36,358 nucleotides of DNA from Actinomycetota bacterium (GTDB lineage Bacteria > Actinomycetota > Actinomycetes > Streptosporangiales > Streptosporangiaceae), in the NCBI GenBank assembly GCA_003168295.1, contig PMST01000693.1:37693-74050 (forward strand), written 5' to 3'. Positions 4,585 to 34,889 of this stretch are shown in pieces (the stretch's first letter is position 1; each line of letters begins with the position of its first letter). The position numbers and the translations under genes were made by a program. Below the pieces are notes generated by a model, which was not told where the DNA came from, did no database searches, and saw nothing but the letters and a program-made list of their open reading frames with translations.

Positions 4585-5418
4585 TCAGCTCTTGAGCTGC
4601 GCGACGGCGCGCAGTTCCTCTGGTGTCGTGGTACCGAATCCGAAGAACTCGAGGTAGGCCGGGATCTGCTCGAAGAGCATGTCCGAACCGACCTGGACCC
4701 GGCAGCCTTTATCGATGGCGGCCTGCAGGAACGGCGTGATCTGCTGCTTCATCACGACTTCGCCGACGAACGTGTCCGGTGAGATCCGGTCGACGTCCAT
4801 CGGCAGCGGGTCGCCGTCGTTCATGCCAAGTGGCGTGGCGTTGACGACGATGTCATAGCCCTCCGGGTCGCTGGAGCCCGTGTCGATCTGGATCTCCGGG
4901 TAGTGCTCGTCGATTCTGGCGGCGAGCGCCTCGGACGACTCCTTATAGGGATCGAACAGGCCGAGGGCCGCGACGCCCGCGGCGGCGATCGACGCGGCGA
5001 TGGCCGATCCGACTCCGCCGTTGCCGACCACGAGCGCTCGCTTGCCGGCCAGCGGGAAGCCCTTGCGTTCGACTCCGCGGACAAACCCGGCCCCGTCGAA
5101 CTGGTCGCCGAGCAGCGTCCCGTCCTCGCGCAGCAGCACCGCATTAGCGGCACCGGCGATCTGCACGGTGGGTGTTACCTCATCGACAAGCCGGATGGTG
5201 GTGACCTTATGCGGCATGGTGATCAGGGCACCCCGGATGTTGGTCATCTTGAACAGGTACTTGAAGAATTCCGGGTACTCCTCCGCTTTGACGCCCATCG
5301 GTACGACGACAGCGTCGATGCCGTTCTTCTCGAACCATGGGTTGTAGATAAGCGGCGACTTGAAGCTATGGGTCGGATAGCCCACGTGCGCGATCAAGGT
5401 GGTCGTCCCGCTGATCAT
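4585..5418 (-). CDS. Shikimate/quinate dehydrogenase-like protein, NAD-type signature
   Basis: Member of the shikimate dehydrogenase family, 277 residues. Substrate-site motifs are divergent but present: GYPTHSFKSP (AroE GxPxxHSxSP), catalytic Lys71 in LITMPHK, catalytic Asp108 in GDQFDG, and NATPLGM. The Rossmann loop is GNGGVGSA (~132-139). After the second beta strand the usual NADP-binding NRT is replaced by LFDPYKE with an Asp at 156. Acid residues here favour NAD+ in catabolic quinate/shikimate dehydrogenases. A catabolic role is therefore inferred rather than aromatic amino acid biosynthesis, and a canonical aroE-like gene exists at 34029. The start has an aaggag site overlapping the stop of the decarboxylase, 9 bp upstream, so the two are translationally linked. 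Confidence 0.8.
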   Translation of the reverse strand: MISGTTTLIAHVGYPTHSFKSPLIYNPWFEKNGIDAVVVPMGVKAEEYPEFFKYLFKMTNIRGALITMPHKVTTIRLVDEVTPTVQIAGAANAVLLREDGTLLGDQFDGAGFVRGVERKGFPLAGKRALVVGNGGVGSAIAASIAAAGVAALGLFDPYKESSEALAARIDEHYPEIQIDTGSSDPEGYDIVVNATPLGMNDGDPLPMDVDRISPDTFVGEVVMKQQITPFLQAAIDKGCRVQVGSDMLFEQIPAYLEFFGFGTTTPEELRAVAQLKS

Positions 5419-15827: not shown

Positions 15828-17183
15828 TCAGGACAGCTCGGCGTCCCAGCCACGGTCCTGGATGGCATCGCGAATATACCGGAGGAACAGGGACGCGGTC
15901 GAGCCGTCGAAGGCGCGGTGGTCATAAGAGAAGCCCAGGATGCTCATGTGGTGAATGGCTATAGCGTCCCCCACCGCGACCGGGCGCCGGGCGATCCCGT
16001 CGGTGGACAGGATCGCCACGTTCGGCTGATTGATCACCGGCGCGGAGGCGTAGCTGGCGAACGGGCCAGGATTGGTGATCGTGAACGTCGAGCCGCTCAT
16101 GTCGGCGGCCGCGAGTGTCCGGGCGCGTGCCCCCGCGGCGACCGCGGTGATATTGCGGGCCAGGCCGCGGATATTGAGCGAATCAGCGTTCTTCACTACC
16201 GGGGCCACCAGGCCCTGCTCGCTGAGATCGACCGCGATACCAAGGTTCACGTAATGGTGCATGGTCATCGTCTGGTTCTCGATGTCGATCGAGGCGTTCA
16301 CCGCGGGAAACTCGCGCAGCGCGTCGCACACGGCCCGGGCGATGAAGGGAAGGTAGGTCAGCGACATGCCTTCGCTCTTCTTGAACTGTTCCCGGTGGCG
16401 CTGCCTGACCTGCTCGACGTGCTCGAAGTCCACCTCGACCGAGGTCCAGACGTGCGCCGAGGTCCTCAGCGACTTGACCATCAGGTCCGCGGTGATCAAC
16501 CGCATCCGGGACAGCTTGACGACCTCGTCGCCCGGGGACACGCTCGCGGCCGGCTTCTGGGCGGCCACGGGAGCCGGCGTCGCGGCGGGCGCCGCGACGG
16601 TGGCCGGCGCGGCAGCGGCTACGGCCGACGGAGCCCCCGCGGCGGGTGGCGTCGCGATCGCACGCTCTACGTCCTCGCGACGGATCCGCCCGCCCGCGCC
16701 AGAACCGGATATCGCGGCCAGGTCGATGCCCTTCTCGGCCGCTAGCCGCCGTACGACGGGGGACAGCGCCACTCCGGAGTGGCCGTTGCCCGCCGACGCG
16801 GCGGGTCCGGTGACGGGCTCGTTCGTTTCCGACACCCCGGCCGCGGGTGCCGCCGCAGTGGGCGTCGCCGCCGCGGCTGGCACTGCCGTGGCCGTGCCGG
16901 CGGGCGCCGGGGTCGCGGCCGACGCTGAGGCCGCACCGGGCTCGCCGATCCGGGCGATAGGGGTTCCGATGGGGACCGTGTCACCGGCGGGGACCAGGAT
17001 TTCGAGCAGGACGCCGTCATACGGGCTCGGTACTTCCGAATCCACCTTGTCGGTCGACACCTCGAAGAGCGGGTCGTCGAAGGCAACGGTGTCGCCGACC
17101 TGCTTCAGCCACTGGGAGACGACACCCTCTGTCACGGTCTCGCCCAGCTTCGGCATCGTGACCTCGTAAACGTCACCGCTCAT
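15828..17183 (-). CDS. Dihydrolipoamide acyltransferase (E2) of a 2-oxoacid dehydrogenase-type complex
   Basis: E2 core of 451 residues that carries acyl groups from E1 to CoA. It has a single lipoyl domain (1-80) with lipoyl-Lys46 in STDKVDSE. An Ala/Pro linker, a peripheral-subunit-binding domain (~148-185, ending GAGGRIRREDVERAI) and a second Ala/Pro linker follow. The catalytic domain carries the active site DHRAFDG (421-427). The ATG at 17183 has a clear aggag site; an in-frame extension to 17555 runs through the E3 gene and is wrong. It lies 17 bp after the E3 gene. The substrate class (pyruvate, branched-chain or acetoin) cannot be settled by sequence reading. Confidence 0.9.
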   Translation of the reverse strand: MSGDVYEVTMPKLGETVTEGVVSQWLKQVGDTVAFDDPLFEVSTDKVDSEVPSPYDGVLLEILVPAGDTVPIGTPIARIGEPGAASASAATPAPAGTATAVPAAAATPTAAAPAAGVSETNEPVTGPAASAGNGHSGVALSPVVRRLAAEKGIDLAAISGSGAGGRIRREDVERAIATPPAAGAPSAVAAAAPATVAAPAATPAPVAAQKPAASVSPGDEVVKLSRMRLITADLMVKSLRTSAHVWTSVEVDFEHVEQVRQRHREQFKKSEGMSLTYLPFIARAVCDALREFPAVNASIDIENQTMTMHHYVNLGIAVDLSEQGLVAPVVKNADSLNIRGLARNITAVAAGARARTLAAADMSGSTFTITNPGPFASYASAPVINQPNVAILSTDGIARRPVAVGDAIAIHHMSILGFSYDHRAFDGSTASLFLRYIRDAIQDRGWDAELS

Positions 17184-17200
17184 TACATATCTCCTAGGGC

Positions 17201-18601
17201 TCAGCCGTGCAGCGATCGGCCGGTAAAGGTGATCATCGTCTCGCCAATGGCCTCGGACAGGCTGGGATGCGGATGGATGAAGGCGCCGACCTCCGACGGC
17301 AGGGCCTCCCAGTTGACCGCGAGGTACGTCTCGGCCAGAAGCTCGCTCGCCCACGGCCCGACCAGGTGGACACCCAGGATCGGGCCGCCTTTCTCCGCCA
17401 CCACCTTGACCATGCCATCGGTGTCGCCGATGATCATCGCCCGGCCGTTGCCCGCGAACATGTGCTTGTGTACTTCGATGTCCCGGCCCGCCGCCCGGGC
17501 CTCGGCCTCGGTCAGGCCGCTCCACGCGACCTCGGGGTGGGTGTAGACGACCCATGGCACCCGGTCGTAGTCGACGGGCACCGCGCGCTCGCCCAGGATC
17601 GTGTGGATGGCGACGATCGCCTCGGCGTAGGCGACGTGGGCCAGTCCAGGGGTGCTGACGCAGTCACCTATCGCGTAGACGTTCTCCCGCGTGGTGGCCA
17701 TGGTGGCCGGATTAACGTCGATGAAGCCGCGGTCGGAGACCGCCACGCCGGCCGCTTCGGCCCCGATGTCCTCGGTGACCGGCCGGCGGCCGATGGCCAC
17801 CAGAACCTGATCGACTTCGATCTTCTCGGCGCCCTTCGCGGTCTCGAAGGAAACCAGGAGCCCGCTATTGGTCCGCTCGAGCGGGCTGACCCTGGCCCCG
17901 CCGTAGATCTTGGTGCCCCGGCGGGCGAGCGCCTTGGCCAGCACGTTAGCGACATCACGGTCGGGCCCGATGGGCAGGACGGCCTCGGGCAGGGCTTCGA
18001 GCAAGGTCGTCTGGGTGCCCAGATCGGTGAACACGGACGCGAACTCAGAACCGATGACGCCCCCGCCCACGACGGCGATGCGTTCCGGCAGGGACGCGTC
18101 GGCGCTGTTGGTGGCCTCATCGGAGCTGATGACCCGGTCGCCGTCGAGGTCCAGGCCCGGGATGGAGCGGGGCGCGGAGCCCGTGCACACGATGACGGCC
18201 CGCGCGTTCGTGGTCTGGCCGTCAACCTCCACGGCACCGTCCGCCGTCAGCCGGCCGTGCCCTTCGATGATCGTGACCTTGCGTCTGCGCAGGAGTCCGC
18301 TCAGGCCCGTGTGCAGCTGGTTGACGATACCGCTCTTCCTCGCGTTGAGGGCGGGCCAGTCGGTCACGGCCGTGGCACCTTCTGGCAGCCGGAAGCCGAA
18401 GGTGTCGGCATGGCCGATCGTCCGGTACACCTCGGCGGCCTGCAGCAGGGCCTTCGCGGGGATGCACCCGCGGTGCAGGCAGGTGCCGCCGACCTTCCTC
18501 TCCTCAACCAGGGCCATCTTGAGCCCGGCGGAGGCGCCGTACAGCGCGGCCGCGTAGCCCCCCGGGCCGCCGCCGAGCACGATCACGTCATAGTCGGTCA
18601 T
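17201..18601 (-). CDS. Dihydrolipoyl dehydrogenase (E3)
   Basis: Flavoprotein of 466 residues that reoxidises dihydrolipoamide with NAD+. It has the N-terminal FAD motif VIVLGGGPGGYAAAL, the redox-active disulfide Cys41/Cys46 in GGTCLHRGCIPAK, a second Rossmann motif VVGGGVIGSEFASVF for NAD, FAD-contact AIGDC, and the C-terminal HPHPSLSE with the catalytic His-Glu pair. The start overlaps the E1beta stop by 4 bp, so the two genes are translationally coupled. It is placed between E1beta and E2 rather than at the operon end. Confidence 0.93.
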   Translation of the reverse strand: MTDYDVIVLGGGPGGYAAALYGASAGLKMALVEERKVGGTCLHRGCIPAKALLQAAEVYRTIGHADTFGFRLPEGATAVTDWPALNARKSGIVNQLHTGLSGLLRRRKVTIIEGHGRLTADGAVEVDGQTTNARAVIVCTGSAPRSIPGLDLDGDRVISSDEATNSADASLPERIAVVGGGVIGSEFASVFTDLGTQTTLLEALPEAVLPIGPDRDVANVLAKALARRGTKIYGGARVSPLERTNSGLLVSFETAKGAEKIEVDQVLVAIGRRPVTEDIGAEAAGVAVSDRGFIDVNPATMATTRENVYAIGDCVSTPGLAHVAYAEAIVAIHTILGERAVPVDYDRVPWVVYTHPEVAWSGLTEAEARAAGRDIEVHKHMFAGNGRAMIIGDTDGMVKVVAEKGGPILGVHLVGPWASELLAETYLAVNWEALPSEVGAFIHPHPSLSEAIGETMITFTGRSLHG

Positions 18602-19584
18602 GCCGTTGCCACCTTCCGCACGGTCTCGGCGATCTGGGCGGCCTGAGGCACGACCGCGTCCTCAAGCGGCGGGCTGGTCGGCGTGGGGGTGTTCAAGGCG
18701 GCCACCCGTAGGACCGGCTGGTCGAGCCACCAGAAACACTCCTCCTGGATGGTCGCGGCGATCTCGGCGCCGTAACCGAGCCGTCGTGCCGCCTCGTGCA
18801 CGACGACGGCGCGCGAGGTTTTCCGTACCGATGACACGATGGTCTCCACGTCGAGCGGGACCAGTGTCCGCACATCGACAACCTCGGCCGAGATGCCCTC
18901 CTTGTCCAGCTCGGCCGCGACGGCCAGGCACTCGGACACATAGGCCCCGTAGGTGATGACGCTGACCTGGCTGCCTTCGCGGACCACCTTGGCCTGCCCG
19001 AGCGGCACGGGTTCCAGCGACAACGGGCCTTGAGTCCGCAGCCGGCGATAGAGGTACTTGCTCTCCAGGAACAGGACCGGGTTATTGTCCCTGATCGAGC
19101 TGATCAGCAGGCCGGCGGCGTCCTCCGGGGTGCCGGGAACCACGATCTTCAGGCCGGGCACATGAGCGAAATACGACTCGACACTCTGGGAATGGGTGGG
19201 GCCGGCGCGCAGGCGCGCGCCGAACGGCGCCCGCATCGTCACCGGCATCGGGTCACCCGTCCGGTAATGATGCCGGGCCATAACGTTGATGATCTGGTCG
19301 AACGCGGCCGAGATGAAGTCGGCGAACTGATACTCCACCACCGGACGCAGTCCCACCAGCGCCGCACCCGCCGCCAGGCCCGTGAACCCGGACTCCGCCA
19401 TGGGCGGGTCCACCACGCGGCGGGGCCCGAACTTCTCCAGGAATCCCTTGGTGACCTTGAAGGCACCGCCGAACTGGCCCACGTCCTCACCGATGATGAA
19501 AACGTCCGGATCGGCCTCCATCTCGCTCATCAGGGCCTGGGAGATGGCATCGAGGTAGGTCACCTGACCGTTGTCAGTCTGCAT
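18598..19584 (-). CDS. 2-oxoacid dehydrogenase E1 component, beta subunit
   Basis: Transketolase-type beta subunit of 328 residues (VTYLDAISQALMSEM, IGEDVGQFGGAFKVTKGF, PMAESGFTGLAAGAAL, PTHSQSVESYFAH), the partner of the alpha subunit in binding thiamine diphosphate. ATG 19584 is chosen because family homology starts there; the gene then overlaps the E1alpha 3' end by 11 bp. Sequences of this type occur in pyruvate, branched-chain and acetoin dehydrogenases. Confidence 0.92.
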   Translation of the reverse strand: MQTDNGQVTYLDAISQALMSEMEADPDVFIIGEDVGQFGGAFKVTKGFLEKFGPRRVVDPPMAESGFTGLAAGAALVGLRPVVEYQFADFISAAFDQIINVMARHHYRTGDPMPVTMRAPFGARLRAGPTHSQSVESYFAHVPGLKIVVPGTPEDAAGLLISSIRDNNPVLFLESKYLYRRLRTQGPLSLEPVPLGQAKVVREGSQVSVITYGAYVSECLAVAAELDKEGISAEVVDVRTLVPLDVETIVSSVRKTSRAVVVHEAARRLGYGAEIAATIQEECFWWLDQPVLRVAALNTPTPTSPPLEDAVVPQAAQIAETVRKVATA

Positions 19585-20587
19585 ATACACCCTGCTCCAC
19601 GGTCGCCGGGTCGGGAAGGGGATCCGCGAGCGCCTTCTTGCGCGCCTCGATAGCTTTCTGGCGCGCGGCCGCGCGCGTTTTACCTGCTGTTTCCTCGTCA
19701 ATAATGCCGTGTTCGAGCAGGACGTTCTCGAACAGCGCCACCGGGTCGCGTTTCTGCCATTCCTCCAGCAACTCCCGCGGCACGTAGTCGGCCGGGTCGT
19801 GCTCCGCATGGCCGTGCATCCGCATGGTCACGCCCTCGATGAGCGAGGGACCCTCGCCCGCCCGGGCCCGCGCCACCGCCTCGCTCGTGGCGTCATAAAC
19901 CGCCAGCACATCGGTGCCGTCGACGGTGACGCCCGGCATTCCGTAGGCTTGCGCCTTTACGGAGTAATCCTTAACCGCGGACTGCATGCGCACCGGCGTG
20001 GAATAGGCATACTGATTGTTCTCGACGACAAAGATGGCCGGCAGCTTCATGGCGGCGGCGATATTGAGCGACTCATGGAAGTTGCCCTCCGAGGTCGACC
20101 CGTCGCCGCAGTAGGCCAGCGACACACCGTCCTGGTCCCGGTACTGGAACGCGAAGGCGAACCCGAGGGCCACCGGGTAGTTGTCCGGGATGTGACTCGG
20201 CAGGTTGTAGATGTTCAGGTCGAGCCGCCCGTAGTGCAGCGTGCCGTCGCGCCCGCCGGTGGGCGAGGTGGCCTTGCCCATGAAGCTGGCCATGATCTGC
20301 GCCGGGTCCATGCCGCGCCACAGGTGAGCCCCGAGATCACGGTGGATCGGGGCGAGGAAGTCATCCTGGCGGAGCGCGGAAGCGGTGCCGACCGAGATGG
20401 CTTCATGCCAGTGCCCGGTGTACAGGGAGCCCAGCAGATCGCCGGACCGGTACATGCTTACCATCCGGTCCTCGACGGCGCGCGTCATCACCATCGTCTC
20501 GAAGATCCGCAGCAGCAGCTGCTTGTCGCGGCTCTCTACCGGCTCGCTTTTACTGCCCGTTTTCCGTCTGGCGCGGGTGGGTGGCAT
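19574..20587 (-). CDS. 2-oxoacid dehydrogenase E1 component, alpha subunit
   Basis: Thiamine-diphosphate-dependent alpha subunit of 337 residues. The cofactor motif runs from GDGSTSEGNFHESLNIAA to the downstream ENNQYAYSTP. HRDLGAHLWRG and GKATSPTGGRDGTLHYG are typical of the active-site loops. A good aggag site precedes the ATG. It starts 44 bp after the MaoC gene, which suggests a CoA-thioester pathway. There is no aldehyde dehydrogenase nearby, so the complex may consume a 2-oxo acid from ring degradation; that is inference. Confidence 0.92.
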   Translation of the reverse strand: MPPTRARRKTGSKSEPVESRDKQLLLRIFETMVMTRAVEDRMVSMYRSGDLLGSLYTGHWHEAISVGTASALRQDDFLAPIHRDLGAHLWRGMDPAQIMASFMGKATSPTGGRDGTLHYGRLDLNIYNLPSHIPDNYPVALGFAFAFQYRDQDGVSLAYCGDGSTSEGNFHESLNIAAAMKLPAIFVVENNQYAYSTPVRMQSAVKDYSVKAQAYGMPGVTVDGTDVLAVYDATSEAVARARAGEGPSLIEGVTMRMHGHAEHDPADYVPRELLEEWQKRDPVALFENVLLEHGIIDEETAGKTRAAARQKAIEARKKALADPLPDPATVEQGVYAD

Positions 20588-21120: not shown

Positions 21121-21226
21121 CGTTCCGCCTTTCACGCTGCCGTCGCAGGCGTACCTGAACGGTCGCGCACGCACCCGGTCCGTGTCTGCGGCCTTCTTGC
21201 TCAGTGGGACGGCGCGCACGCGCACC

Positions 21227-21314
21227 ACCGTTCGTTCGGTCGGTAAAAATCTTTAGGTTCCTGGCGACGGAACCGGATGCCGGCTTTCCGCTGTGATCCG
21301 CCCGCTCAGCGGAA
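21227..21314. promoter_or_regulatory. Divergent control region with three stacked palindromes
   Basis: Between the MaoC and MBL genes lie three elements: a TetR-like imperfect palindrome beginning and ending ACCG/CGGT (21227-21244) followed by an A-rich patch; GGTTCC-N7-GGAACC (21256-21274); and TTCCGCTG (21286-21293) with CAGCGGAA (21307-21314). The last repeats the theme TCCGCT/AGCGGA found at 30011-30023 upstream of the MFS gene. At least two regulators may act here. No regulator gene is adjacent. Confidence 0.45.
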
Positions 21315-21356
21315 GACCGTTTGCCAAAACCCGCGCCATTGGCGAGGTTCGGCTTC

Positions 21357-22367
21357 ATGACGCCAGTCGAGGTTGCTGAGGGGGTCTTCCTTCTCGCGCT
21401 CCCTCTCGGTATTCACCGGATTCCGAGCATTAACGCCTACCTGTTCACCGACCCGGGCGGCGACACGCTCATCGACTGCGGCATCTACGCTGACGGGCCG
21501 CTGCGACCGGGCGACGTCGACGACGGGACGGCGGCGGTCGGCGACGCACTGGCCAAATGCGGCCGCACGTTCGACGACCTCGACCGGCTGATCATCACGC
21601 ACGCGCACATCGATCACTACGGGATCGCCGGCGAGGTGGTCCGCCGCAGCGGGGCGGACCTGTGGATGCACGCCCAGACCGACCTGGACCGGGCCAAGTA
21701 CAACCATCCCGACAGCGCGGTTGACCGCCGGAGCCTCATGCTCGCTGATCACGGCCTCTTCGGAGACACGCTGGCCGCGGCGGCGACGGGCCTGCGCGAC
21801 TGGATACCCGTCATGCCGTCTATCGGACAGCCGACGACACGGGTACACGGCGGCGAGAAATTCGACGCGGGCGGCCGAACCTGGGAGATCCTGCACACCC
21901 CAGGCCACTCCCCCGGTCACATCTGTATCTGGTCAGCCGAGGACAGCCTGCTGTGCTCGGGCGATCACCTGCTGAAGTCGATTTCACCGCCGGTTACCTT
22001 CGAACGCGGCTTCGAACGTGATCCCATGGGCTCTTATCTCGAGTCACTGCGGCTGGTCGAGCTGCTCGAGCCGGCGCTCGTGCTGCCCGGGCACGGCGAA
22101 ACCTTCACCGACGGCGCGGCGCGCGCCGCGAGCATCGCCGAGGGCAAGCGCCGCCGTCTGGGGCGGGTGCTGGCCTCGATCGAGTCCGGGCCCCGCACGG
22201 TGACCGAGCTGGCGACTGAGCTGTACCCGAAGCCGCTCAAGGGCGCGCAGCTGCACTTCGTCATGGCCGAGATCCTCGCCTACCTCGCCTATCTGGAAGC
22301 ACGCGGCCAAGCCGAGCGGGTGCGGACGTCCGAAGGGGTCTTCGTCTGGCGTCCGGTCCAGGATTGA
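21357..22367 (+). CDS. Metallo-beta-lactamase-fold hydrolase
   Basis: Zinc hydrolase of the glyoxalase II/MBL fold, 336 residues from ATG 21357. Visible motifs are THAHIDHYG (HxHxDH), HTPGHSPGHIC, CSGDHLL and LPGHGE, giving the complete two-metal site, followed by a ~75-residue C-terminal winged-helix-like region (PRTVTELATELYPK). TTG at 21321 is in frame with a ggaag upstream and would add 12 residues. It is not chosen because it directly abuts the palindrome and the family core starts at PVEVAEGV. The substrate is unknown; thioesters and lactones are common in this fold. It is followed at 29 bp by the PhaC N-domain gene. Confidence 0.85.
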   Translation: MTPVEVAEGVFLLALPLGIHRIPSINAYLFTDPGGDTLIDCGIYADGPLRPGDVDDGTAAVGDALAKCGRTFDDLDRLIITHAHIDHYGIAGEVVRRSGADLWMHAQTDLDRAKYNHPDSAVDRRSLMLADHGLFGDTLAAAATGLRDWIPVMPSIGQPTTRVHGGEKFDAGGRTWEILHTPGHSPGHICIWSAEDSLLCSGDHLLKSISPPVTFERGFERDPMGSYLESLRLVELLEPALVLPGHGETFTDGAARAASIAEGKRRRLGRVLASIESGPRTVTELATELYPKPLKGAQLHFVMAEILAYLAYLEARGQAERVRTSEGVFVWRPVQD

Positions 22368-22396
22368 GCGACCCGGGTACTCAGGACAGGAGTGGC

Positions 22397-22852
22397 ATGA
22401 CGACCGACACACCGGGAGAGTCACCGGAGCATGCCGCCTCAGCGCTGGCCCGCGAAATCGAATTCCTGGCTGACCCTGATGTCGCCGGGCTGGGCCGGTC
22501 ACTCGCTGCGGTACTCCGCGGAGCGGTGGACAACCCGACCGCCGTGAGCCAGGCGTGGCTCCGCTACGCGCAGCGCCTCGCGGCAATACCCCAGGTTGTC
22601 CTGTCGAACCGGATGGGGACCGCGGCTACGCCGCCCATGCCGCTCAACTCTAAGGATCGCCGCTTCGCCGACCGCGCCTGGTCCGAGAACCCTGCTTTCT
22701 ACGCGCTGCGGATGTACCACCAGGCGTTCGCCGAGTTCGTGGCCGAGCTGGTCACCGCGGCCGGGCTCGAGCGAATCCAGGAGACGAAGGCGCGCCTGCT
22801 GACCGCGCTGATGATGGACGCACTCGCCCCGGCCAATTTCCTGCCTGCGTAA
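22397..22852 (+). CDS. Stand-alone PhaC N-terminal domain protein (no catalytic domain)
   Basis: Protein of 151 residues matching only the N-terminal domain of class I polyhydroxyalkanoate synthase: DRRFADRAWSENPAFYAL (~87-104) and ending in the PhaC-like ALAPANFL (~142-149), where a full synthase would continue for some 400 residues with the lipase-box Cys. The stop follows cleanly, a hairpin follows that, and no remainder of phaC is visible downstream. It may be a regulatory or granule-binding protein, or the relic of a gene loss. An aggag site precedes ATG 22397; a TTG at 22364 overlaps the MBL stop but is less likely. Confidence 0.78.
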   Translation: MTTDTPGESPEHAASALAREIEFLADPDVAGLGRSLAAVLRGAVDNPTAVSQAWLRYAQRLAAIPQVVLSNRMGTAATPPMPLNSKDRRFADRAWSENPAFYALRMYHQAFAEFVAELVTAAGLERIQETKARLLTALMMDALAPANFLPA

Positions 22853-22884
22853 TTTTTACGTGTAAACCGCCGCCCGGCCGTTTT

Positions 22885-22903
22885 GGTTCCGCACGGCGGA
22901 ACC
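22885..22903 (+). terminator. Short hairpin after PhaC N-domain gene
   Basis: ggttccg (22885-22891) and cggaacc (22897-22903) form a 7-bp stem with a 5-base loop, preceded by tttt and followed by ttcgtt. It lies 32 bp after the stop and 40 bp before the hydratase start. It could be a terminator, or an operator for the hydratase operon, because GGTTCC/GGAACC recurs at 21256. Confidence 0.5.
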
Positions 22904-22942
22904 TTCGTTGTGACGCTGGCCCGCGCATGACAGGTATATGGG

Positions 22943-23746
22943 GTGCAAAGCGAACAAGTTCTCTCCGAACTGGCCGATGACCTGTGGCAGGCGGAACACA
23001 CCGGGGTGCCGGCTGAGCCGCTGACCAAGCGTCATCCCGGCCTCGTCATCGACGACGCGTACGCCATTCAGTCACTGAACATCGACCGGCATATCGCGGA
23101 TGGGGCCCGGATCTGCGGCCGCAAGGTGGGCCTGACCTCGCTCCCCATGCAGGAGCTTCTGGGCGTTAAAGAGCCCGACTACGGAGTTCTGCTCGACCAC
23201 ATGTTCGTGGAGGACGGCGATGAGGTGGCCCTTGATCGCCTGCTGCAGCCGCGGGTAGAAGCGGAACTGGCCTTTGTCATGGAGGAGGACCTGGCCGGTC
23301 CCGGTGTCACCGCGGCCCGCGCCCTGACGGCCATCGCCGGTGCGCTTCCCGCGGTGGAAATCGTGGACAGCAGGGTGGCGGACTGGCAGATCAAGCTGGT
23401 GGACACCGTCGCCGACAACGCGTCCTCCGGCCTGCTGGTCGTGGGGGGCAACCTGCGCAAGGTGACCGACATTGACCTGCGGCTCGTCGGGGTGATGGTG
23501 ACCAGGCACGGCGAGCTGGTCGATACCGGCGCGGGCGCGGCCGTCCTCGGCAACCCGGCCCGGTGCGTCGCCTGGCTGGCGAACAAGCTCGCGACCTTCG
23601 GCGCATCGCTGCACGCCGGTGACATCGTCCTGCCAGGAGCGGTCCACCGGATGATCGGCGTGAAGCCCGGCGATGTATTCCGCGCTGAATTCGCCTACCT
23701 CGGCACCGTGACAGCACGGTTCTCCGGCGGAGGGAGTCTGACGTGA
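22943..23746 (+). CDS. 2-oxopent-4-enoate hydratase-family enzyme (MhpD/DmpE-type)
   Basis: Protein of 267 residues of the 2-keto-4-pentenoate hydratase/2-oxohepta-3-ene-1,7-dioate hydratase family. These enzymes add water to 2-hydroxydienoates formed by meta-cleavage, giving a 4-hydroxy-2-oxo acid. The metal-binding acidic residues are seen in PRVEAELAFVMEED and AVEIVDSR; GRKVGLTS is another family signature. GTG start with a weak site. The last bases overlap the next gene (GTGA), so both are co-translated. It presumably acts on the product of the C-C hydrolase encoded at 11214. Confidence 0.87.
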   Translation: MQSEQVLSELADDLWQAEHTGVPAEPLTKRHPGLVIDDAYAIQSLNIDRHIADGARICGRKVGLTSLPMQELLGVKEPDYGVLLDHMFVEDGDEVALDRLLQPRVEAELAFVMEEDLAGPGVTAARALTAIAGALPAVEIVDSRVADWQIKLVDTVADNASSGLLVVGGNLRKVTDIDLRLVGVMVTRHGELVDTGAGAAVLGNPARCVAWLANKLATFGASLHAGDIVLPGAVHRMIGVKPGDVFRAEFAYLGTVTARFSGGGSLT

Positions 23747-24519
23747 TCGAGGCCAAGGACATGGCGTCCCAGCTCATTGCGGCCGAGGAAGCGCGCACGG
23801 CGATCTCGCCGTTCTCCGACAGCCATTCCGACATCGACATCGAGGTGGCCTATGCGGCGCAGTGGGAGTTCGTGCAGTCCAAGCTGGACGCGGGCGAGCA
23901 GCTGACCGGGGCCAAGCTCGGCCTGACCAGCCGGGCCAAGCAAGAAGCCATGAACGTGGCCGAGCCGCTCTACGGCTGGATAACCAGCGGCATGATCGTC
24001 GATTACGGCGGGCCGGTGGACCGGAGCAGCCTGATCCATCCTCGGGCGGAGCCGGAAATCGCGTTCCTGCTCGGCCGCGACGTGACCGCACCCGCCACGG
24101 TGACCAGCGTGCTGGCCGCTACCGAAGCCGTCTTCGCCGCGGTGGACATACTCGACTCCAGGTACGACGACTTCCGCTTCACCCTGCCCGATGTCATTGC
24201 CGACAACGCCAGCGGCGGGCGGATCGTACTCGGCCCGCAGGCTCGGCGCCCCGATGAGCTAGTTGATCTCCGCTTGCTTGGCTGCGTGCTGCGAGCCGGC
24301 GGTGAGGTCGTGGCCACGGCCGCCGGGGCCGCGGTCTCGGGTCACCCGGCGGCCGCGGTGGCCTGGCTGGCCAATCGGCTCGGCGCCCAGGGCAAGAGCC
24401 TGCGCGCCGGGATGCTCGTACTGTCCGGAGGCCTCACCGCGCCGGTTCCGCTCGAGCCTGGCACCGCCATCGCGGCCGAGTTCGACGGCCTGGGCTCGGT
24501 AGAGGTCTACTGCCGCTAG
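23743..24519 (+). CDS. 4-oxalocrotonate decarboxylase-type enzyme (DmpH-like)
   Basis: Paralogue of the preceding hydratase, 258 residues; the two subfamilies share one fold and act as a complex in catechol meta pathways. GAKLGLTSRAKQEAMNV, PRAEPEIAFLLGRDV and AVDILDSRYDDFRF match the 2-oxo-3-hexenedioate/4-oxalocrotonate decarboxylase branch. GTG start overlapping the hydratase stop by 4 bp. Hydratase versus decarboxylase is judged from sequence feel and gene order, so it could instead be a second hydratase. Confidence 0.8.
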   Translation: MIEAKDMASQLIAAEEARTAISPFSDSHSDIDIEVAYAAQWEFVQSKLDAGEQLTGAKLGLTSRAKQEAMNVAEPLYGWITSGMIVDYGGPVDRSSLIHPRAEPEIAFLLGRDVTAPATVTSVLAATEAVFAAVDILDSRYDDFRFTLPDVIADNASGGRIVLGPQARRPDELVDLRLLGCVLRAGGEVVATAAGAAVSGHPAAAVAWLANRLGAQGKSLRAGMLVLSGGLTAPVPLEPGTAIAAEFDGLGSVEVYCR

Positions 24520-24528
24520 GGGGAGCAA

Positions 24529-25218
24529 ATGGCTGACGCCGAGACCGGGCTGATAACCCTGCCGCCGCATCTCGATCACGAGGCACTAGCCCACGCCCAG
24601 CAGGAAACGCTGAACACCCCGCGACGGCCGTACGGAATCCCCGCCAGGGTGCTGTTCGCGCTGCTCGACGTCCTCTACCGGCGCAAGCGGACGCTGTCCA
24701 AGTTCAAGGTCCTCGAACTGGTCGCGCGGGTTCCCTACCAGAGCTGGGAGCAGGTCGCCTACATCGCCATCACCCATGTCGCGCTGCGCCCGGGGCTGGC
24801 CCGCCGCATCCACGACCGGGTGGCGCAGGCCCGGGTCCAGCAGGACAACGAGCAATGGCACCTGCTGATCCTGGAGGAGCTCGTGGCCAGCACGGGCAAA
24901 AAAGAGTCCCGCTTGCTTTACTACTGGATCCCGCAGGCCATCGCGTTCGTCTACTACCAGGTGTCCTGGCTTCTGTACGTGCTTCACCCGGCCTGGTCCT
25001 ATCAGCTCAACGCCGACTTCGAAGATCATGCCGAGCACGAGTACATGACGCTGGTCACCGAGCACCCGGAATGGGAAAAGGAGCCGTTTACCTCGGCGTT
25101 CGAGGCCGACTACGGCAGCTTCGAGTCGCTGGCCGACCTGTTCAGGCAGATCGGCCACGACGAGCGAGTGCACAAGCAGGAAAGCCTGGAGCAGATGCGC
25201 CAGCCCCATTTCCGCTGA
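24529..25218 (+). CDS. Alternative oxidase (AOX)-family di-iron protein
   Basis: Membrane-associated di-iron carboxylate protein of 229 residues. All six metal ligands of alternative oxidases align: Glu63 in LELVARVP (AOX LETVAAVP), Glu108 and His111 in NEQWH (AOX NERMH), Glu165 in FEDHAEHEY (AOX LEEEAxHxY, with the redox Tyr at 172), and Glu212 and His215 in DERVH (AOX DEAHH). A hydrophobic, aromatic-rich segment (~129-158) fits monotopic membrane binding. AOX oxidises quinol with O2 without proton pumping. Sitting 9 bp after the decarboxylase gene with a gggggag site, it may instead oxidise or hydroxylate a quinol-like pathway intermediate. Confidence 0.82.
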   Translation: MADAETGLITLPPHLDHEALAHAQQETLNTPRRPYGIPARVLFALLDVLYRRKRTLSKFKVLELVARVPYQSWEQVAYIAITHVALRPGLARRIHDRVAQARVQQDNEQWHLLILEELVASTGKKESRLLYYWIPQAIAFVYYQVSWLLYVLHPAWSYQLNADFEDHAEHEYMTLVTEHPEWEKEPFTSAFEADYGSFESLADLFRQIGHDERVHKQESLEQMRQPHFR

Positions 25219-25227
25219 GCCCCGTTT

Positions 25228-25241
25228 CCGTCCAGGGACGG
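25228..25241. terminator. Weak hairpin between convergent genes
   Basis: ccgtc (25228-25232) pairs with gacgg (25237-25241) around a 4-base loop in the 47-bp gap between the AOX-like and GNAT genes. The stem is short, so terminator function is tentative. Confidence 0.3.
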
Positions 25242-25265
25242 CGCGCTTGCTTTCCTGCTGGTGCG

Positions 25266-25859
25266 TCAGGACGTGAGTCCGGCGCGGAGGGCGGCCGCCT
25301 CGGCCACATGGGCGGCGGCGACGCGTGATCTGTCCGCGGGCAGCTCGAGCCCGGCCAGCTGCAACCTCAGCTCGATGCTGCCGGAGTCCCGGGCGGAGGT
25401 CGACGGGACGTTCAGGGCCTGGAGCAGGTGGAGCATCGGCCTGTTCGAGGCCAGCACCACGGCCGTCAGCGATGCCATGCCGCTCACCACCGCGACGTCC
25501 ACCAGCCGCTGCAACAGCCGGGTGCCCAGCCCTAGGTGGTGCAGCGCGTCGTCGACGATCAAGGCGATCTCCGCGTCGGTGCGCCCGGCCTGGCCTTCGT
25601 ACCTGGCGACCCCGGCCAGCTCCCCGGTGTTCCTGACACCGACCAAGGCGAACCGCCACTCCTCGGAGATGCCGGTGAACCGCAGGATCTCGGCCGGGGT
25701 CAGCACGGGCTTGAAACCGAAATAACGCCGGTAGACGCTGTCCGGCGACAGCCGCGCGTGCAGCCCCGCGAGCTGGTCGCCGTCGGCGAGCCGGATCGGA
25801 CGGACACCGATCCGCTCGCCGTCACGTAGCTCGAGTTCGTCGATGATCCGGATAGCCAC
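25266..25859 (-). CDS. GNAT-family N-acetyltransferase
   Basis: Acetyltransferase of 197 residues with the GNAT core: EIALIVDDALHHLGLGTRLL (~97-116, acetyl-CoA pyrophosphate loop) and ASNRPMLHLLQALN (~137-150). The N-terminal region (RPIRLADGDQLAGLHARLSP, YRRYFG) is like that of GNAT domains attached to acyl-CoA-ligase-type lysine acetyltransferases in actinomycetes. Free-standing here; the substrate is unknown. GTG start, weak ribosome site. No clear link to the catabolic operons on either side. Confidence 0.82.
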   Translation of the reverse strand: MAIRIIDELELRDGERIGVRPIRLADGDQLAGLHARLSPDSVYRRYFGFKPVLTPAEILRFTGISEEWRFALVGVRNTGELAGVARYEGQAGRTDAEIALIVDDALHHLGLGTRLLQRLVDVAVVSGMASLTAVVLASNRPMLHLLQALNVPSTSARDSGSIELRLQLAGLELPADRSRVAAAHVAEAAALRAGLTS

Positions 25860-25898
25860 GAAAACACGATCGGCGTCCGCGCGTCGGGGGTCAAGGCC

Positions 25899-25916
25899 GT
25901 TCCCGGCGTGCGGAAC
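25899..25916. promoter_or_regulatory. Palindrome GTTCC-N8-GGAAC
   Basis: gttcc (25899-25903) and ggaac (25912-25916) lie in the 185-bp divergent region between the GNAT gene and the flavin reductase-GntR fusion. This is a candidate operator for the GntR module of the fusion or for an IclR protein. The rest of 25860-26044 shows no gene. Confidence 0.3.
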
Positions 25917-26044
25917 ACGGCACCGCGATCAGCCGCCGGCCTCGGCGAGGCTTATCGCTGAACGGAACGAGCCGGGGTCTGGCCAGGGAAGGATGCCAGA
26001 CTGAACCAGAGCGACACGAGATAGTCGATGACAGCGGAGCACCC

Positions 26045-27181
26045 TTGAGACCAGTCGATGAGCAGCCGCTGGATGCTGGAGCCTTCCGGCAGGTTATCGG
26101 CCGGTTCATGAGCGGCGTGGTGGTGATCACCGCGACGCACCAGGGCGAGCGCCGCGGGATGACGGTGAGCGCAGTCGCGTCCCTGTCGCTTGATCCTCCG
26201 ATGATCGTGACGTGCCTGAACGCGGCGAGCGCCACGCAGGAGGCGGTCCGCCAGGCCGGCGCGTTCGCGGTTAACATCCTGGCCGAGGACCAGGAACATC
26301 TGGCCGGGCTCTTCGCCCGGCCAGGCGCCGATCCGTTCCTTGATCTGCCCTGCGAGCCCGGGATCACCGGCGCGCCCATCCTGGCGGGCGCGCTCGCGGT
26401 GCTCGAATGCCAGGTTGTACAGGAGGTACGGGGCGGATCTCACCGCGTCCTGCTCGCCAGCGTCGTACGGGCCAGCGCTGGCGAGGGCTCGCCGCTGGCC
26501 TACTTCCGCGGCCGGTTCGGCCGGATCGAGCTGATCCAGGACGCCGAGGCGTACGGGCGGCTCAGGGACCTCATCTTGACGCGGCAGGTGAGCGCCGATG
26601 AGCGACTGGACGTGGAGCGACTGGCCGGCCAGCTGAAGAGTTCCCCTTCGGCCGTGCAGTACGCGCTGACCCGGCTGGTGACCGAGAACCTGGTGATCAG
26701 GGAGGACCGGGGCCACGTGGTCAAGCCGCTTGACGTCGCCACTTCCAACGAAGCTCATGACGCCAGGATGGCGATCGAACTCGGCGTAGCCGAGATGACG
26801 GTGGGGCACCTAAGCCAAGACCAGCTGTCCGGACTGCGGCGGCTGGCCCAGGCGACGGTCGACGTCCTGCGCCGGGATGATCCGGACGGCATAGCCTCCT
26901 ACGCGCTGGCCAACCAGGAGTTCCACCGCTACCTGGTGGCCACCGCCGGGGTGGATGCGCTGTCCGCCGTCTATGAGCAGCTCGCCATCGCCGACCTGAT
27001 CTCCCGGGCGCTGCGGACCCAGGACGAGATCGAGGGCATCCTGGCGCATGAGCACCTGGACCTCGTGCAGGCCTACGAACGAGCCGATCGTGACGCCGTA
27101 CGGGAGATCATCATCCGGCACACCGCGCACGCCAAGCAAACCCAGCAGCGTGGCATCGAAAGAGCCGGTGGTCAGCTGTAG
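26045..27181 (+). CDS. Flavin reductase fused to GntR/FCD-type regulator
   Basis: Fusion protein of 378 residues. Residues ~10-160 are a split-barrel flavin reductase (FRQVIGRFMSGVVVITA, GMTVSAVASLSLDPPMIV, LAYFRGRFGRI), the kind that supplies FADH2/FMNH2 to two-component monooxygenases. Residues ~165-235 form a GntR-type winged helix (DVERLAGQLKSSPSAVQYALTRL) and ~255-370 an FCD-like helical ligand domain (NQEFHRYLVATAG, HEHLDLVQAYERAD). TTG start at 26045 follows ggag at 5 bp, and no alternative start precedes the flavin domain. No monooxygenase partner is encoded in the window. It could tie gene control to flavin or aromatic ligand state; that is inference. Confidence 0.85.
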   Translation: MRPVDEQPLDAGAFRQVIGRFMSGVVVITATHQGERRGMTVSAVASLSLDPPMIVTCLNAASATQEAVRQAGAFAVNILAEDQEHLAGLFARPGADPFLDLPCEPGITGAPILAGALAVLECQVVQEVRGGSHRVLLASVVRASAGEGSPLAYFRGRFGRIELIQDAEAYGRLRDLILTRQVSADERLDVERLAGQLKSSPSAVQYALTRLVTENLVIREDRGHVVKPLDVATSNEAHDARMAIELGVAEMTVGHLSQDQLSGLRRLAQATVDVLRRDDPDGIASYALANQEFHRYLVATAGVDALSAVYEQLAIADLISRALRTQDEIEGILAHEHLDLVQAYERADRDAVREIIIRHTAHAKQTQQRGIERAGGQL

Positions 27182-34028: not shown

Positions 34029-34889
34029 ATGAACGTGGACGTGACCACCACCTCGGTTGACCAGGCGGTGCGGCGGGCCGCCGTACTTGGGTCCCCGATC
34101 CAGCATTCGCTTTCCCCCGTCCTGCACGGGGCGGCCTACCGGGCACTTGACCTGCATGGCTGGCACTACGACAAGATCGAGTGCGACGAGCCGGGCCTGC
34201 CACGGCTGGTGGACAGCATGGGTCCCGAGTGGGCGGGCCTGTCGCTGACAATGCCGCTCAAGCGAGTGGTCATGACCGTCGCCGACGAGGTATCGCCGCT
34301 GGCCGAGGCGGTCGGGGCCGCGAACACACTGGTGTTCTCTCCGGGCGGGGGCACACGGGCGGACAACACCGATGTGGCCGGCATGGTCTCGGCGCTGCGG
34401 GAGGCCGGACTGACCCGGGTCGAGCAGTCGGTCATTCTCGGCGCAGGCGGCACGGCCCAAAGTGCCCTCGCCGCGGTGCGCGAGCTGGGCCACCAGTCGC
34501 CGATCATCCTGGTGCGCAACCTGGCCCGTACCAGCGAGCTGCGTGAGACCGCCGAGCGACTCGGGATGCGGCCGACGATCTCCGACGGCCTGTTCACCGA
34601 GCCGCTGCCCGCCGCCGACCTGGTCATCTCCACGCTGCCCGGCGGCGCAGCCGATCCGCTAAGTGCTACCCGCTGGAAACCAGACACCATGGTGCTTGAC
34701 GTGGTGTACGCGCCGTGGCCGACCTCCTTCGCCGGGTCAGCCCTGGCCGCCGGGTGCCCGGTGGTCAGCGGTCTGACCGTGCTGCTTTACCAGGCGGTCG
34801 CGCAGGTCGAGCTGATGACCGGTCATCCCGGCCCGGTGGAGGCAATGCGAACCGCCCTGGTCGCCGCGGTCGCGGCCCGGCAAGGCTGA
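34029..34889 (+). CDS. aroE: Shikimate dehydrogenase (canonical NADP-type)
   Basis: Shikimate dehydrogenase of 286 residues with the canonical motif set: GSPIQHSLSPVLHGAAY substrate site, LSLTMPLKR with catalytic Lys78, ADNTDVAG with Asp115, Rossmann LGAGGTAQSA, and VRNLARTSEL whose Arg residues suit NADP(H). It reduces 3-dehydroshikimate to shikimate, or runs in reverse in catabolism. No other aromatic biosynthesis gene is adjacent, and actinobacterial aroE is usually elsewhere. Whether it is the housekeeping copy or a catabolic one is open. The 140 bp before it (33889-34028) show no gene and only a weak ribosome site. Confidence 0.82.
   Translation: MNVDVTTTSVDQAVRRAAVLGSPIQHSLSPVLHGAAYRALDLHGWHYDKIECDEPGLPRLVDSMGPEWAGLSLTMPLKRVVMTVADEVSPLAEAVGAANTLVFSPGGGTRADNTDVAGMVSALREAGLTRVEQSVILGAGGTAQSALAAVRELGHQSPIILVRNLARTSELRETAERLGMRPTISDGLFTEPLPAADLVISTLPGGAADPLSATRWKPDTMVLDVVYAPWPTSFAGSALAAGCPVVSGLTVLLYQAVAQVELMTGHPGPVEAMRTALVAAVAARQG

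Follow-up and report, generated by a model that had tools for sequence, protein, structure and literature searches.

A candidate third class of alternative oxidase, possibly oxidising menaquinol, encoded behind a hydratase/decarboxylase-like gene pair in an Actinomycetota genome

The gene considered here lies in a 36,358-nucleotide stretch of an Actinomycetota genome (contig PMST01000693.1), hereafter the window, and encodes a di-iron protein of the alternative oxidase (AOX) superfamily. Its open reading frame (ORF) was confirmed at 24529-25218 on the forward strand and comprises 229 aa. Judging from trees and alignments, the protein belongs to a third branch, outside the reference set of proteobacterial-type AOX and apparently also outside that of cyanobacterial PTOX. 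It is probably a third type of alternative oxidase, in which a membrane-surface, haem-free and non-pumping di-iron enzyme would pass electrons from a reduced quinone, likeliest menaquinol, to O2. The chances appear about even for the fuller proposal that a third AOX class with a Lys/Glu quinol pocket would be the di-iron menaquinol oxidase of non-photosynthetic menaquinone bacteria, wired in some actinobacteria into aromatic catabolism. The features on which the analysis is centred are the following:

24529..25218, + strand: AOX-superfamily di-iron protein (P0001), with iron ligands E63, E108, H111, E165, E212 and H215 and redox tyrosine Y172
Within 24529..25218, + strand: branch-specific residues of P0001, namely F43, K58 and E171, located by alignment

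The window protein is a real member of the AOX superfamily. It matched the Pfam AOX profile (PF01786) with 32.7 bits, over the curated cut-off of 22.7, and this was its sole Pfam match at E 0.01, with no other di-iron family found. Its predicted structure showed the AOX fold, and helices 1 and 4 were hydrophobic, with a composition resembling that of AOX and PTOX; a single-sequence structure prediction (pLDDT, predicted local distance difference test, 45.1) was of no use and was left unused. The first-pass annotation of this DNA had assigned the protein to AOX from the six ligands and the redox tyrosine. These seven residues are present as listed above, and profile, fold and tree uphold the assignment. 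In an alignment (A4) of 74 branch rows and 9 AOX/PTOX references, all 83 members matched AOX at E 0.001. Moreover, the six ligand columns and the tyrosine column held an identical residue across 204 branch, 126 PTOX-type and 121 AOX-type sequences, the exceptions being one or two gaps per column in branch rows and one Cys at the tyrosine column of an AOX row. A PDB sequence search with the window protein returned no relative and one chance match.

The trees separated the branch rows and the AOX rows, each forming one side of a branch with support of 100/100, and 46% of 200 bootstrap trees placed the 15 PTOX rows together on one side of a branch, for which the quick tree gave a support of 89; the branch may thus be a sister of PTOX or stem from near the PTOX base. 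The bootstrap tree held 9 AOX rows, obtained from one proteobacterial query and from plasmids, none of them mitochondrial. Over sampled pairs, the mean identity of the branch was 29.7% to PTOX and 20.7% to AOX. Nesting inside the AOX reference set, for which the first-pass annotation had proposed a phylogeny, was rejected on account of the separate branch.

The branch also differs in the quinol pocket, which was compared by mapping the numbering of trypanosome AOX (TAO) onto it by alignment. R96 corresponded to F43 in 203 of 204 branch rows (one gap), R118 to K58 in 204/204, and T219 to E171 in 202, the other two rows carrying a Thr (L087) and a gap. At these sites, the references presented Val/Ile, Arg and Thr in PTOX and Arg, Arg and Ser in AOX, with few exceptions. 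Y70 and H167, the latter a His at the position of TAO E215, were common to the branch and PTOX; the patterns used in the locus scan (NADFEDH and D[LV]FRQIGH) touch D166 and H167 and hence favour H167, leaving F43, K58 and E171 untouched. In addition, the spacing between Y172 and D211 was 39 in the branch, 43 in AOX and 60-61 in 120 of the 126 PTOX-type rows, the remaining PTOX-type rows having 63 or, in 3 rows, 19. A remote homologue with 34% identity, in L088, carried Val instead of Glu at position 171. According to the available part of PMC6213860, activity fell severely with R118A, R118Q or T219V in trypanosome AOX and with R96A in other species, and cereal AOX isoforms are naturally altered at R118, T219 and R96; such changes therefore need not exclude quinol oxidation. 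The accessible portion of PMC7904559 describes R118 and T219 as hydrogen-bonding inhibitors in docking. The oxygen-handling core is thus conserved, and the donor pocket shows a fixed remodelling.

The protein search retrieved 4823 relatives, not necessarily all of this branch, at E values up to 0.001, and among the best 120 of these, the names 'alternative oxidase' and 'ubiquinol oxidase' were already in use. In a scan of species genomes, 124 stretches were confirmed; 80 of them were kept, with identities of 53-74%. By record title, these loci came from Mycolicibacter, Pseudonocardiales, Acidimicrobiia, Myxococcota, Omnitrophota, Elusimicrobiota, Rokubacteria, Methylomirabilis, Chlorobiales and others; single taxon assignments may be wrong, since most source genomes are metagenome-assembled genomes (MAGs). 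The gene was patchy in its distribution. Around L001, the closest of the 80 loci (74% identity), it occurred in 4/397 genomes of the order, 5/396 of the phylum and 1/351 of the family, and around L004 (Pseudonocardia asaccharolytica) in 20/297 genomes of the family, counts that include the centre genome. Some loci presented peculiarities of their own. An in-frame TAG lies within the oxidase gene of a Pseudonocardiales MAG (L005, the same gene as L082), and the Acidimicrobiia MAG G008 has two oxidase copies, L028 and L035, the latter ~4.3 kb from a COX1 gene. The Omnitrophota genomes G1303, G1309, G1368 and G1378 carry a remoter homologue group (31-40% identity), with COX1 in 0/4. On plasmids, a PTOX-type gene lies downstream of a hexameric tyrosine-coordinated haem protein gene in Nostoc (L089), and an AOX gene lies upstream of a group III truncated haemoglobin gene in Azospirillum (L092).

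Quinone and respiratory markers were surveyed in 30 gene-bearing genomes chosen from the 80 loci and in 14 control genomes. A menaquinone-pathway marker was found in 25 of the 30 hosts, with MenD in 16 and MqnA/D in 9 others; MenD was counted over its cut-off only, because below it the model matches other enzymes. UbiG was found in 0/30 host genomes, and the same model matched Escherichia coli and Caulobacter among the controls. COX1 was present in 30/30 hosts and cytochrome bd in 11/30. Among 184 Omnitrophota genomes, COX1 occurred in 9/16 with any homologue versus 30/168 without (p 0.0014) and in 9/12 with a close homologue versus 30/172 others (p 5e-5), p-values that ignore kinship and genome completeness. 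Across 92 oxidase loci, whose available flanks extend up to ~10 kb and are often shorter, COX1 was found in the flank of one (L035), besides two Omnitrophota regions picked for having COX1. The marker and COX1 data point towards a function in menaquinol-based aerobic respiration.

In the window, the oxidase gene is the last of three closely spaced genes, which are listed here with the features around them:

22943..23746, + strand: 2-oxopent-4-enoate hydratase-like gene (FAA_hydrolase; DmpE/MhpD/HpaH type), below NCBIfam cut-offs; best solved relative 8ih6_A (4e-67)
23743..24519, + strand: 4-oxalocrotonate / 2-oxo-3-hexenedioate decarboxylase-like gene (DmpH/NahK type), below NCBIfam cut-offs; NahK 5d2i (5.9e-51)
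24519..24525, + strand: GGGGGAG, ribosome-binding-like, 3 bases before the ATG of the AOX-family gene, by direct reading
22885..22903, + strand: palindrome GGTTCC-N7-GGAACC, with 39 bp between its end and the start of the hydratase-like gene; may be an operator or else, for the unit upstream, a terminator-like hairpin
21256..21274, + strand: second GGTTCC-N7-GGAACC copy, between the MaoC-like (-) and metallo-hydrolase (+) genes where these diverge
21321..22367, + strand: metallo-beta-lactamase-fold hydrolase, which opens the co-directional unit upstream, by Pfam
22364..22852, + strand: 162-aa ORF matching only positions 1-65 of 173 of PhaC_N, by Pfam; overlaps the metallo-hydrolase gene by 4 bp

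The hydratase-like and decarboxylase-like genes overlap by 4 bp, and a gap of 9 bp separates the latter from the oxidase, a distance that had been reported correctly before. By this spacing, the oxidase is probably co-transcribed with the pair. The earlier description of the unit as a 'ring-cleavage operon' thus fits as to the operon and is looser as to ring cleavage: the pair looks like the two types of subunit seen in 8ih6 and NahK, but its NCBIfam scores lie below the cut-offs (287.2 versus 408.8 for DmpE; 238.3 versus 350.55 for DmpH). Moreover, no extradiol or intradiol ring-cleavage dioxygenase family was found in a Pfam scan of 30 window ORFs (28 of the 35 called genes and two others). 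The window holds 2 exact matches to the strict palindrome, and 100 shuffles yielded 0, although this form was picked after a looser pattern, whose 2 matches were equalled by 18/100 shuffles and are not beyond chance; the strict form was found in 1 of 130 fetched loci. Shared control through these palindromes is a suggestion only, because the pattern was picked afterwards and the copy at 22885..22903 is terminator-like. No sigma-70-like promoter was found in 21200-26100.

Other arrangements were observed in the window. The ORF at 22364-22852 (+) looks like a lone N-terminal piece of a polyhydroxyalkanoate synthase, and the one at 26045-27181 (+) fuses a flavin reductase domain to a GntR/FCD regulator, an unusual sensor-like arrangement. 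Two shikimate dehydrogenase-like genes occur at 4585-5418 (-) and 34029-34889 (+); near the latter are two sugar-isomerase TIM-barrel genes, an FAD_binding_2 dehydrogenase and major facilitator superfamily transporters, as in quinate/shikimate catabolism. The region 15828-20587 (-) holds genes for a 2-oxoacid dehydrogenase complex (E2 and E1-beta by Pfam, E3 and E1-alpha by eye) together with the MaoC-like gene, is divergent from the catabolic unit and adjoins a palindrome copy.

The neighbourhood seen in the window was not repeated across the family. A relative of the hydratase/decarboxylase pair was found in the available flank of only 2 of the 92 oxidase loci, at 6-7 kb in L061 and at ~0.5 kb, adjacent and divergent, in L001. 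Likely co-transcribed neighbours, of which 20/56 were scanned, were mixed (helicase, dihydropteroate-synthase-like, BrkB, Fic, thiolase, mutase, transporter and others). De novo clustering of neighbours revealed no family adjacent in more than 2 loci among the 45 listed, the simple gene caller behind it having missed the oxidase ORF in 16/89 sources. A family-wide link to ring cleavage was rejected on the 2/92 count. The first-pass annotation had taken scattered homologues as evidence against this link; they are indeed largely scattered, but not fully so close to the window, since L001 has as neighbours a decarboxylase-like gene, which scores below the DmpH cut-off, and a gene for 2-hydroxymuconic semialdehyde dehydrogenase that passes its own. 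A LigB-type, 4,5-DOPA-extradiol-type dioxygenase, also over its cut-off, lies ~4 kb from the L001 oxidase. The link thus seems local rather than general, and it is possibly confined to the window's own sub-branch.

Several points weigh against a menaquinol oxidase of a distinct branch. The branch placement is weakened by narrow AOX and PTOX reference sets, which are mostly the best 120 hits each of one Nostoc and one Azospirillum query plus a few records, neither plants nor mitochondria being represented. No menaquinone marker exceeded the cut-offs in 5 of the 30 genomes (L037, L053, L070, L071 and L073), of which L071 is titled a complete genome. The markers are themselves imperfect, as MenD at E 0.001 matched 28/30 hosts (12 below cut-off) and 14/14 controls (7 over cut-off), and PF02621 matched in Sulfolobus. 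COX1 is common in Actinomycetota, so its presence in 30/30 tells little there. In Omnitrophota, apart from the kinship and completeness that the p-values disregard, 7 of the 16 homologue-bearing genomes had no COX1, among them all 4 at 31-40% identity. The neighbour contexts leave out relatives of more than 80% identity. Finally, Lys, Glu and Phe in the pocket may mean a non-quinol substrate, because changes at R118, T219 and R96 are reported to cut activity sharply.

This last point leads to the alternative of an AOX-fold di-iron oxidase with a non-quinol donor, its K58/E171 pocket serving another lipid or a protein. The invariance of K58 and near-invariance of E171, against Arg and Ser/Thr in the reference sets, at positions that matter according to the available parts of PMC6213860 and PMC7904559, speak for it. 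The remaining core, the hydrophobic helices and the co-occurrence with respiratory oxidases of aerobic type are instead what a quinol oxidase would show, and no neighbour family was found next to the oxidase in more than 2 loci among the 45 listed; we regard this alternative as unlikely. Still less probable is a proposal along the lines of the first-pass annotation, in which a small intermediate of the adjoining pathway, phenolic or a hydroquinone, would be oxidised or hydroxylated by the enzyme. The 9-bp distance to the decarboxylase-like gene, the palindrome before the unit, the altered quinol-pocket residues and the meta-cleavage-type genes beside the L001 oxidase are consistent with it. 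Against these stand the rarity of pair relatives (2/92 loci, adjacent in 1), the mixed neighbours elsewhere and the members in Omnitrophota and Elusimicrobiota. Hydratase and decarboxylase steps follow ring opening, when no aromatic intermediate is left. Since the enzymes encoded next to it act only once the ring is open and the gene usually occurs apart from them, hydroxylation is the less likely function, and the proposal was left unsupported.

An ordinary cyanobacterial-type PTOX, recently transferred, would account for the shared Y70 and H167 and for the greater mean identity to PTOX than to AOX; it is very improbable in view of the separate branch, the shorter Y172-D211 spacing and the differences at K58, E171 and F43. 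The least credible alternative is another di-iron family, COQ7 or ferritin-like, misread as AOX. The COQ7 profile gave weak matches in 2 of the 83 members of A4, and such an identity was rejected because the Pfam profile, the predicted fold and the A4 profile matches argue strongly against it.

We return to the third-type alternative oxidase, for which we infer a quinol as the donor, menaquinol as that quinol, membrane binding and a role as overflow valve. A reduced quinone, for which menaquinol is the likeliest candidate, would deliver electrons to the di-iron site at the membrane surface, where O2 would be reduced without proton pumping, draining excess electrons from the menaquinone pool. 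In the window, the oxidase would be transcribed with a pair of lower meta-cleavage type, and the valve would therefore be made when aromatic catabolism loads the quinone pool. This catabolic coupling seems to be a local recruitment and not a family trait. Of the functions advanced earlier, the best fit is the burning of reducing power that the pathway generates, and the likely donor is the quinol pool, not an intermediate of the pathway.

In the part available of a 2025 survey (PMC7618691), prokaryotic AOX is restricted to Pseudomonadota and PTOX to Cyanobacteriota, and the accessible text of PMC4919992 mentions alternative oxidase in its reference list only. The loci of the present branch are assigned by record title to Actinomycetota, Myxococcota, Omnitrophota, Elusimicrobiota and others. 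No description of a separate branch was found in titles and abstracts of the searched literature, subscription papers being mostly outside its reach. If menaquinol is oxidised, these bacteria would have a haem-free, presumably cyanide-resistant bypass, a non-pumping terminal oxidase of menaquinone respiratory chains overlooked by current surveys, and the fixed Lys/Glu swap would offer a direct handle on quinol choice by AOX enzymes.

Among known systems, the branch shares with cyanobacterial and cyanophage PTOX the superfamily, the six ligands, the redox tyrosine, an FxVLExxARxPY-type motif and the His at TAO E215. It differs from PTOX in a Y172-D211 segment that is ~21 residues shorter than in most PTOX rows, in having Lys, Glu and Phe where PTOX has Arg118, Thr219 and, at TAO R96, Val/Ile, and in its hosts, with no cyanobacterium among the 80 branch loci by record title. 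Compared with mitochondrial and proteobacterial AOX, from which it forms a separate branch, it has Tyr where AOX has Gly at 70, His in place of Glu215, Lys in place of Arg118, Glu in place of Ser/Thr219 and Phe in place of Arg96, and its hosts carry menaquinone rather than ubiquinone markers. With COQ7, the demethoxyubiquinone hydroxylase, the window protein has in common the di-iron four-helix core.
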